Shown here: in pieces, positions 1-32,367 of the stretch
Layout of the letters: each line of letters begins with the position of its first letter
Numbering within the stretch: the first letter of the stretch is position 1
Source: Flavobacteriaceae bacterium
Lineage (GTDB): Bacteria; Bacteroidota; Bacteroidia; Flavobacteriales; Flavobacteriaceae
Direction: 5' to 3'
DNA length: 32,367 bases
Assembly (NCBI GenBank): GCA_023260435.1
Contig: JALQVG010000051.1
Coordinates: 1-32,367, forward strand
The notes under the pieces: model-generated
The model's database searches: none
The model's input: only the letters and a program-made list of their open reading frames with translations
What the model was told of the DNA's origin: nothing
Position numbers and translations under genes: made by a program

Positions 1-2468
1 TAGGCAGACTTCCAGAATCTTCTGCGGCACAAACGCACATACCAGTTGCTCAAGTGCTCTTGAACAAAATCACTGATCGCGCGTGCAGCGCGCGTAGGCT
101 CGTATTCGCCATAGGCTTGATCTACGGTCTGTACCAAAGAATGCAATTCAGAAAGGATCCATCGGTCAATTTCTGGACGTTCCCCTACCGGGATCTGATC
201 CTCTTGGTTGGTCCACTGATCTACATTGGCATACAAGGCCAAAAATGAGTACGTATTGTACAACGTGCCAAAGAACTTGCGCTTCACCTCTGCCACTCCT
301 TCAGGATCGAACTTGAGGTTGTCCCATGGATTAGCGTTAGCAATCATATACCATCTAGTCGCGTCTGGTCCGTGCTCGTTGATTATCTCAAATGGGTCGA
401 TCGCATTGCCCAAACGCTTGGACATTTTCTTTCCGTCTTTGTCCAGCACCATGCCATTAGACACGACGTTTTTGTAGGCTACACTGTCAAAAACCATGGT
501 GGCAATCGCGTGTAACGTATAAAACCAACCCCTGGTTTGGTCTACGCCTTCCGCGATGAAATCCGCTGGGAATTGATCGTTGTTGTCGATTAACTCTTTG
601 TTTTCAAAAGGATAGTGCCACTGAGCATAGGGCATAGAGCCTGAATCAAACCAAACATCGATCAAGTCGGACTCACGGTACATCGGACGTCCATCGGGGG
701 CAGCCAAGACTATTTGATCCACAAAGTTTTTGTGTAGATCTAGTTTAGCGTAGTTCTCCTCGGAATAATCCCCAGGAATAAAGTCTCCGTAGATGTTTTT
801 TTCCATCAAGCCCAGCTCCACCGAATGATTCATGGCTTCGATCAGTTCCGCCACAGAGCCGATAATACGCTCATGTGCTCCGTCTGCGGTGCGCCAAATA
901 GGCAAAGGGATCCCCCAGTACCTCGATCTGGAAAGGTTCCAGTCGTTGGCGTTGGCTAGCCAATGACCAAATCGTCCCTCACCAGTAGCCTTGGGTTTCC
1001 AGTTGATGGTTTGGTTGAGCGCATGCATGCGCTCACGCACCTGAGTCGCCTTGATAAACCAAGAATCTAGGGGGTAATATAAAATAGGTTTGTCGGTACG
1101 CCAGCAATTGGGGTACGAGTGGACGTATTTTTCAACTTTAAAAGCCCTGTTTTGGGTCTTTAAGGCAATCGCAATTTCTACGTCCACGGACTGTTCGGGA
1201 GCCTCACCCTCAGGGTAATAGGCGTTTTTGACGTATTTGCCAGCGAGGCCCAAGCCCACCTCGGGACGAAAACGCCCTTGAAGATCGACCAATGGCACCA
1301 GCTGCCCGTGCTCGTCCTGGACCAACATGGGAGGAATTTCTGGGACCGCTTGTTTGGACACCAGGGCGTCATCCGCTCCAAAAGTAGGTGCAGTATGCAC
1401 TATACCCGTTCCGTCTTCAGTAGTGACAAAATCTCCTGAAATCACGCGAAAAGCGTTTTCTGGATGGTCAAATGGCAACACGCCTGGGATTAACTGAGCA
1501 TAGCGGATGCCCACCAGCTCTGTGCCCAAGAATGTGTCGCCCACCCAATAAGGGATTTTTGGATCGTTAGCGTTATATGTTGCAAGGGCTTCGCGTTGTT
1601 CCACCTGAACGTATTTGCCAGTAAACTGCTTGGCGATGAGTGGCTCCGCCAAAATTACGGCCATAGGAGCAAACGTGTATTGGTTGTAGGTGTGCACCAC
1701 CGCGTATTTTATTTTGGGTCCCACGGTCAGCGCCGTATTGCTGGGAAGCGTCCAAGGCGTTGTGGTCCAGGCCAATACGTACAATTCCTCAATGCCGGAT
1801 AAACCTTGGGGCAACCCTTCAGGCAACACCTCAAACATCGCGGTGATTGTAGTGTCCGTCACATCTTGGTAGGTGCCTGGCTGATTGAGCTCGTGGGAAC
1901 TCAATCCCGTCCCAGCCTTTGGCGAATAAGGCTGAATGGTGTACCCTTTGTACATCAAGCCTTTTTCGTAAATCTGCTTTAAAAGCCACCACACCGACTC
2001 CATGTACTTGGGCTCATAGGTCACGTAAGGGTGGTCCATATCCACCCAATACCCCACTTGTTGGGTCAACTCATTCCACACATCGGTGTAGCGCATTACC
2101 GCTTTGCGACAAGCCTCATTGTATTCGGTTACTGAAATCTTGGTGCCGATATCTTCCTTGGTAATCCCCAGCTCCTTTTCTACGCCCAATTCAATGGGTA
2201 ACCCGTGGGTGTCCCAGCCCGCTTTGCGCAAAACTTGGTACCCCTTCATGGTTTTGTACCTCGGAAAAATATCTTTAATGGTGCGGGCCATCACGTGGTG
2301 AATGCCTGGCATGCCGTTGGCGGAAGGAGGTCCTTCAAAAAAAACGTAGGAAGGGGCTCCCTCACGTTGGTCGACACTCTTCTGGAATAAGCCTTCAGCC
2401 TCCCATACTGCCCTTTGATCGCGGGCGGTTTGGGCCAGGTCCAATCCCTTGTATGCTGCAAATTTCAT
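1..2468 (-). CDS. ileS: Isoleucyl-tRNA synthetase, partial (C-terminus beyond left edge)
   Basis: Own reading of the minus strand from ATG at 2466-2468 ([31 protein letters not shown]...[34 protein letters not shown]). Class I signature GMPGIHH and KMSKRLGN (around 410-440), [18 protein letters not shown], and [15 protein letters not shown] are present. No in-frame stop to position 1, so the ORF track does not list it. Confidence 0.97.
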
Positions 2469-11895: not shown

Positions 11896-13446
11896 ATGCA
11901 AAACATCCCTTCTGTTTCCGATATGTTATCCCAGTTGGGTATTTCCTCCGTTAACCCTGGTACTTCTACGGGCAGTGACCAACACACCAGTGACGAACTG
12001 CTTACGAGCTACTCCCCTGTAGACGGGTCTCAAATTGCTCAAGTAAGTGTAACCACCCAAGGGCAAATGAACCACGTAGTAGAAACTGCGCAGCGCGCAT
12101 TTGTCGCATGGCGAGAAATACCTGCCCCCAAAAGAGGTGAGGTTGTGCGTCAATTCGGCATGGCGTTGCGCGAAAAAAAAGACGTACTCGGTGCTTTAGT
12201 CTCCTATGAGATGGGCAAATCCTACCAGGAAGGGTTGGGGGAAGTACAAGAAATGATTGACATCTGTGATTTTGCCGTGGGCTTATCGCGTCAACTGCAC
12301 GGATTAACCATGCACTCCGAGAGGCCCAAACACCGCATGTATGAACAATACCATCCGTTAGGTATTGTAGGAATCATTTCCGCATTTAATTTTCCCGTGG
12401 CCGTATGGGCTTGGAACACTGCCCTAGCTTGGGTTTGCGGAGACGTATGCATATGGAAGCCCTCAGAAAAGGCCCCTTTGTGTGGTATTGCTTGTCAAAA
12501 CATCATCGCAGAAGTGCTGAAAAAAGAAGGTTTGCCCGAGGGTATATCTTGTTTGATTAACGGTGATGCACGGGTAGGTGCTTGGATGACCGAAAACCAC
12601 CAAATACCACTCATATCTGCTACAGGCTCTGTACGCATGGGAAAAATAGTAGGTGCCGCCGTAGCGCAAAGACTAGGGCGCTCCTTATTGGAATTAGGGG
12701 GAAACAATGCCATTATTGTCACGCCGAGCGCTGATCTAAAAATGACGGTTATCGGAGCTGTATTTGGGGCTGTAGGCACTGCAGGTCAGCGATGTACTTC
12801 GACCCGAAGACTGATTGTTCACCAAGATATCTATGAGCAAGTTAAGGAAGCCTTGGTCAAAGCCTATGGGCAAATACGCATTGGCAATCCACTCGATGCG
12901 CGCAACCACATGGGGCCGCTGATCGATAAGCAAGCAGTGGCTGCATATGAAAAAACTCTCGCTTATGTAGTCGCCGAGGGAGGTTCATTGTTGGTGCCCG
13001 GAGGAGTGCTCAACGGAGAGGGATACGAGAGTGGGTGCTATGTAGCGCCTGCTATTGTGGAGGCAGAACCTCATTACGAGATGGTACAACAAGAAACATT
13101 TGCCCCGATTTTATACCTGATGAGCTATACAGGCAGCATAGAGCAAGCCATTGCGATACAAAACGCAGTGCCTCAGGGACTTTCCTCTGCCGTGATGACA
13201 TTGAATATGCGTGAGGCAGAACTATTCTTGAGTGCGGCCGGCTCAGATTGCGGTATAGCCAATGTGAATATAGGCACTTCTGGAGCAGAGATCGGAGGAG
13301 CATTTGGTGGAGAAAAAGAAACCGGTGGAGGACGAGAATCCGGATCTGATGCTTGGAAAGTATACATGCGTCGACAGACCAACACCATCAACTACAGCAC
13401 AGAACTTCCGCTCGCTCAAGGAATACACTTTGATTTAGACGCTTAA
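11896..13446 (+). CDS. Aldehyde dehydrogenase family 7-like (putative aminoadipate-semialdehyde dehydrogenase)
   Basis: 516 aa; FNFPVAVWAWNTALAWVCGD, LLELGGNNAIIV, GTAGQRCTSTRRLIVH, FGGEKETGGGRESGSDAWKVYMRRQTNTINYS, typical of ALDH7/AmaB-type enzymes. Confidence 0.92.
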   Translation: MQNIPSVSDMLSQLGISSVNPGTSTGSDQHTSDELLTSYSPVDGSQIAQVSVTTQGQMNHVVETAQRAFVAWREIPAPKRGEVVRQFGMALREKKDVLGALVSYEMGKSYQEGLGEVQEMIDICDFAVGLSRQLHGLTMHSERPKHRMYEQYHPLGIVGIISAFNFPVAVWAWNTALAWVCGDVCIWKPSEKAPLCGIACQNIIAEVLKKEGLPEGISCLINGDARVGAWMTENHQIPLISATGSVRMGKIVGAAVAQRLGRSLLELGGNNAIIVTPSADLKMTVIGAVFGAVGTAGQRCTSTRRLIVHQDIYEQVKEALVKAYGQIRIGNPLDARNHMGPLIDKQAVAAYEKTLAYVVAEGGSLLVPGGVLNGEGYESGCYVAPAIVEAEPHYEMVQQETFAPILYLMSYTGSIEQAIAIQNAVPQGLSSAVMTLNMREAELFLSAAGSDCGIANVNIGTSGAEIGGAFGGEKETGGGRESGSDAWKVYMRRQTNTINYSTELPLAQGIHFDLDA

Positions 13447-31448: not shown

Positions 31449-31997
31449 TTAGTCTTCTAAGGTTTTAAACAACACACAAGCATTATGCCCGCCAAAACCA
31501 AATGTATTACTCATCGCCACACGCACTTCTCTTTTCTGTGCTTTATTTAGCGTTAAGTTGAGTTCAGGGTTGATGTTTTCGTCCTGATTGACGTGGTTGA
31601 TTGTAGGTGGTACTATACCGTATTTCATGGATAAAATGGAAGCAATGGCTTCAATAGCTCCAGCGGCTCCCAACAAATGCCCCGTCATAGACTTAGTTGA
31701 ATTGATGTTGATCTTAGGCGCATGATCCCCAAATACTTTACTGATCGCTTTGAGTTCAGCAACATCACCTAGAGGCGTCGAAGTACCATGAGTGTTGATC
31801 GCGTCTACTTCATGTGGCTGCATGCCCGCATCTTTCAAGCAATTTTCCATAACCCGAACCACACCTAATCCTTCTGGATGAGGAGCGGTAATGTGGTACG
31901 CATCGCTAGACAATCCTCCACCGGCAACTTCCGCATAAATTTTAGCACCGCGAGCTTTGGCGTGTTCGTACTCTTCAAGGATAAGCGCTCCAGCTCC
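31449..31997 (-). CDS. fabF: 3-oxoacyl-ACP synthase II, C-terminal part only (5' part replaced by foreign sequence)
   Basis: GAGALILEEYEHAKARGAKIYAE..., catalytic His motifs NTHGTSTPLGD and KSMTGHLLGAAGAIEA, C-terminal NTFGFGGHNACVLF. Homology ends at GAGA; upstream residues in this frame (VARQRHPA...) are not KAS-like. Confidence 0.95.
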   Translation of the reverse strand, partial: GAGALILEEYEHAKARGAKIYAEVAGGGLSSDAYHITAPHPEGLGVVRVMENCLKDAGMQPHEVDAINTHGTSTPLGDVAELKAISKVFGDHAPKININSTKSMTGHLLGAAGAIEAIASILSMKYGIVPPTINHVNQDENINPELNLTLNKAQKREVRVAMSNTFGFGGHNACVLFKTLED

Positions 31998-32003
31998 TGC
32001 AGG
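31986..32003. other. Chimeric breakpoint with short microhomology
   Basis: fabF reading frame ends and TAXI-like reading frame begins here; the bases cgctccagctcc (31986-31997) fit both genes. GC content rises sharply to the right. Confidence 0.9.
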
Positions 32004-32367
32004 ATGCCGCTGCCGAGCGACGCCACCGCCGCGTCGGCGCGGCCCTCCATGATGGCGCGAACGCCTTCCGGGTAACTGGTGACGTTGACCGGCACCACGT
32101 CGTCCGGCGTCAGGCCCGCGTTGGCGAGCGCAGAGCGCGCGGTCAGCGTCGCGCCGGAGAAGGCCCCGTAGTTGACGACGACCCGCTTGCCGCGCAGGTC
32201 GGCGAGGGTCTTGATGCCCGAGTCCGGGGTCGTGATCATCGACAACCGGATCGGCGAGCCCAGCATGATGGTGGTCATGGCGTAGCCCTTGCCACCGTTG
32301 GCGCCTTCGAAGGGCCACACCGCCCGCGAGGCAAACAAGGCCTCGATCGGGTTGGCGATGCCCATGT
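31986..32367 (-). CDS. TAXI-family TRAP transporter substrate-binding protein fragment (foreign, GC-rich; truncated at both ends)
   Basis: IEALFASRAVWPFEGANGGKGYAMTTIMLGSPIRLSMITTPDSGIKTLADLRGKRVVVNYGAFSGATLTARSALANAGLTPDDVVPVNVTSYPEGVRAIMEGRADAAVASLGSGILQELE, typical of TAXI/periplasmic TRAP SBPs of Proteobacteria. Confidence 0.85.

Follow-up and report, generated by a model that had tools for sequence, protein, structure and literature searches.

The window analysed here was the entire contig C117 (32,367 bp), the end of the window being the end of the contig, and this end was almost certainly an artefact, namely a chimeric tip of an ordinary kind in a strain-mixed short-read assembly. Two parts of separate origins were joined within fabF, the intact continuation of the gene was located on a sister contig (C57) of the same bin, and the same kind of error recurred at other contig ends. 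The initial annotation had proposed such a chimeric contig end, and the sister contig, the related genomes and three further alien tails in the bin all agreed with this as the best reading. The bin holding C117 consisted of 121 contigs (1.75 Mb) with a completeness of approximately 92%. From the gene order and the sequences that we recognised, the host was presumed to be Bacteroidota-like; acpP, rnc and pyk were presumptively assigned in the same manner by recognising their sequences, and fabF was assigned by a family model.

Table 1. Parts of the C117 end and further alien tails at contig ends of the bin
Contig	Feature	Position	Strand	Basis or content	Normal continuation
C117	fabF 3' part (beta-ketoacyl-ACP synthase II)	31449..31998	-	TIGR03150, identity to C57, fabF matches of relatives	
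C117	Junction overlap fitting both genes, probable microhomology of ~8 bp	31991..31998		End of C57 identity, TAXI relatives	
C117	Foreign tail, internal fragment of TAXI-family TRAP solute-binding protein, Rhodobacterales-like	31999..32367	-	TIGR02122, protein matches, GC	
C61	Alien tail	1-199		76% GC	C14
C91	Alien tail	1-119		70% GC, hydroxymethylglutaryl-CoA lyase-like	C43
C103	Alien tail	12763-13065 (last 303 bp)		63% GC, TRAP DctM fragment	C91

The two sides of the junction differed markedly in composition. The GC content of the tail was 69.6% (257/369), against 47% (15030/31998) for the remainder of C117, and no 364-bp stretch on the left of the junction exceeded 56.3%. The GC content at the third codon position was 0.94 in the tail versus 0.49 in the nearby host pyk. 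The counts made by hand in the initial annotation (47/60 at 32101-32160 and 24/60 at 31681-31740) were exact. When the contigs of the bin were read in stretches, with 16 short contigs masked, the end of C117 and the start of C61 were the most GC-rich places.

Profile searches also separated the two parts. The left part matched positions 232-407 of TIGR03150 with an E-value of 1.4e-80, and its score of 271 bits was under the curated cut-off of this model (493.75), which the fabF copy on C57 surpassed with 570.7 bits. The fragment in the window was thus judged from its sequence to be the end of the true fabF of the organism of C117, and not a whole gene. The right part matched positions 120-199 of the 320 positions of TIGR02122 (E-value, 2.7e-15) in a frame different from that of fabF. 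Its score of 56 bits was lower than the curated cut-off (84.35), as the profile match was limited to these positions; the tail is a fragment, and full-length relatives showing 64-66% identity carry the TAXI annotation. These matches confirmed that the minus strand encodes a normal FabF C-terminus to GAGALILEEY and then a TAXI protein in another frame, as had been described. The open reading frames 31449..32318 and 31865..32365 do exist, and both are hybrids.

Querying the bin with the junction sequence revealed a second fabF copy at the end of C57, where acpP was followed by fabF from its ATG codon, codons 1-399 continuing through the place of the junction to the end of the contig. The overlap with window positions 31506-31998 was 96.3% identical (475/493), and the 18 differences were all synonymous substitutions at third positions, leaving the residues of the 164 overlapping codons identical. 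The probability that 18 of 18 random changes would be synonymous was approximately 3e-12, indicating that both copies descended from functional genes. C57 continued uninterrupted past the junction into the N-terminal half of fabF, reading LGEGAGALILEEY. Judging from these sequences, the fabF copies of C57 and C117 are two haplotypes of a single functional gene. The overlap with its uninterrupted continuation identified C57 to C117 as the natural join and the tail as extra. The natural gene order acpP-fabF-rnc would thus span the two contigs, which adjoin at fabF. As C57 and C117 represent different haplotypes, C57 alone was no proof of an intact fabF in the strain of C117 itself.

The protein search with the tail found counterparts on plasmids of Paracoccaceae. 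The protein of a Pacificitalea manganoxidans plasmid (WP_067919699.1) was 65.6% identical and that of a Paracoccus albus plasmid 63.9% identical, each over 122 of the 122 tail residues, and two further genomes of the same order matched at 66% protein identity. The nearest relatives of the tail, at 64-66% identity, thus belong to Rhodobacterales. The donor species was not found in the samples of the family, order, class and phylum, where the best protein identity was 66%, and the Rhodobacter genome G060 gave no match to the tail in the correct frame. The fabF half matched the genus of the host itself, and the two sides of the junction (47% and 70% GC) therefore came from unrelated genomes.

The junction was searched for in the bin itself and in 59 related genomes. 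Matches were obtained in 43 of the 59, no match extending beyond query position 302 (window position 32001), and the junction or the GC-rich part was absent from the matches in all 59 genomes. The same junction in related strains had been named beforehand as an observation that would speak against a chimera, and this test was negative. Normal LGEGAGALILEEY was found in all seven relatives that were read at the place of the junction, and the TAXI protein of the tail was found in none of 11 genomes of the same genus.

These results bear on the alternative that DNA of an alphaproteobacterial TRAP transporter was truly inserted into fabF of one strain. The assembled contig does include the tail, and some of its nearest relatives are genes carried by conjugative or mobilizable Paracoccaceae plasmids. 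Such an insertion would, however, have cost FabF approximately its first 235 residues, and the search of the bin found no other true FabF in the contigs of this strain; apart from the C57 copy, the family model matched at full length only a distant homologue of 405 aa on C72, which scored 118 bits against the same cut-off of 493.75. In addition to the absence of the junction and of the TAXI protein from the relatives, the foreign part began in the middle of a gene, no transposase, repeat or mobile-element features were present in the 369 bp that lay before the contig ended inside it, and unrelated alien tails were present at three other contig ends. A real insertion is therefore very improbable, in agreement with the opinion of the initial annotation, and a strain that harbors TRAP DNA in fabF and lives without normal FabF is extremely improbable.

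The end of C117 was not the only chimeric tip in the bin, as GC-rich alien tails were detected at no fewer than three further contig ends, on C61, C91 and C103, each with a sister contig that went on normally from the point concerned (Table 1). The searches gave no identification for the C61 tail. The C103 tail was possibly double itself, as the DctM fragment and a weak integrase match lay on opposite strands. A GC content of more than 60% was observed at 4 of 210 contig ends, compared with 12 of 10522 interior pieces of 150 bp (Fisher's test, P = 2e-4).

Unusual ends of other kinds were also observed. Tails of very low GC content (18-26%) were located beside sister overlaps on C110 (1-138), C38 (1-121), C105 (last 246 bp) and C89 (1-117), and could represent chimeric pieces of AT-rich genomes or, alternatively, strain variants of intergenic DNA. 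Many of the unmatched end tails, for example at C91, C33 and C18, were 104-138 bp long, and three were exactly 119 bp. The latter length equals one of the k steps in the MEGAHIT list, hinting that the assembler itself produced the short tails.

The position of the junction was refined by the comparison with C57, as the identity of the fabF fragment with the sister copy extended to 31998. In the other gene, the window read GSGILQELERL at the junction and the TAXI relatives read GSGILQQLNAAEG (ILQEL versus ILQQL), so that the TAXI homology extended to approximately 31991 and about 8 bp fit both genes. The initial annotation had considered CGCTCCAGCTCC, which is indeed present at 31986-31997, as a microhomology of 12 bp. 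A short shared sequence was plausible, although the comparison with TAXI relatives limited it to about 8 bp (31991-31998).

The recognition sequence of SbfI/PstI, CCTGCAGG, was also present on the junction (31996-32003) as claimed, which had raised the alternative of a ligation artefact, in which cloning or library construction would have linked two restriction fragments. At this position the sister fabF on C57 read CTCCTTCACC and not CCTGCAGG, indicating that the host side had no SbfI site to be cut. Moreover, CCTGCAGG was missing from the junctions of the other three chimeric ends, and a second CCTGCAGG in C117, at 6309, was no breakpoint. The ligation artefact was thus left without support and is extremely improbable.

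The pattern of overlaps in the bin pointed to the type of assembler. Overlaps of exactly 141 bp with 100% identity were shared by sixteen contig pairs, and imperfect overlaps by 55. In one of the 16 pairs, positions 1-141 of the window were identical, in inverted orientation, to exactly the first 141 bp of C106, which is likely the neighbour on that side. Contigs from MEGAHIT and metaSPAdes overlap at their ends by the largest k, and a de Bruijn assembler interrupts a contig where several paths exist; one MEGAHIT k list in use starts at 21 and ends at 141 (PMC10914622). The exact 141-bp overlaps would thus be the mark of a de Bruijn assembler with k = 141, probably MEGAHIT itself.

The chimeric tip is best explained if the bin is a short-read de Bruijn assembly of a Bacteroidota-like population comprising two or more strains. 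The two fabF haplotypes, approximately 4% apart, would have split the graph, and the contig would have broken at fabF owing to this difference. A chimeric molecule or read, presumably the product of a template switch within a short stretch common to both templates, would then have led the end of C117 into unrelated DNA of a GC-rich alphaproteobacterium in the same sample. We infer both the chimeric read or molecule as the cause and this order of events in the assembler. As a variant of the artefact, the join could have been made by the assembler only, for example through shared k-mers or local assembly, without a chimeric molecule. Contig breaks with strain overlaps were common in the bin, and shared k-mers are known to give rise to chimeric contigs (PMC7299287). 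The two genes could, however, have at most 13 bp in common (31986-31998), less than 21, the smallest k of the cited MEGAHIT list (PMC10914622), and a shared k-mer alone would be no explanation if the smallest k was indeed 21. This variant is rather unlikely, and the preferred cause of the tip is a chimeric read or molecule.

The relevance of the finding is limited to quality control: annotation should omit the two hybrid open reading frames, counts of horizontal transfer must omit the tail, and errors of this type affect other contig ends of the bin as well.

Compared with the TAXI TRAP subunit WP_067919699.1 (TIGR02122), the tail corresponded to an internal third only, cut on both sides. The join resembled the chimeric reads formed by template switching in multiple displacement amplification, in which two templates are joined at a short overlap, but the cited study treats chimeras within one genome (PMC6515389). 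It also resembled the chimeric contigs of short-read metagenomes, which contain more than one genome where related strains tangle the graph (PMC7299287). In contrast to these contigs, the partner here came from another phylum and the join was very short, which argues for a chimeric read rather than for shared k-mers.
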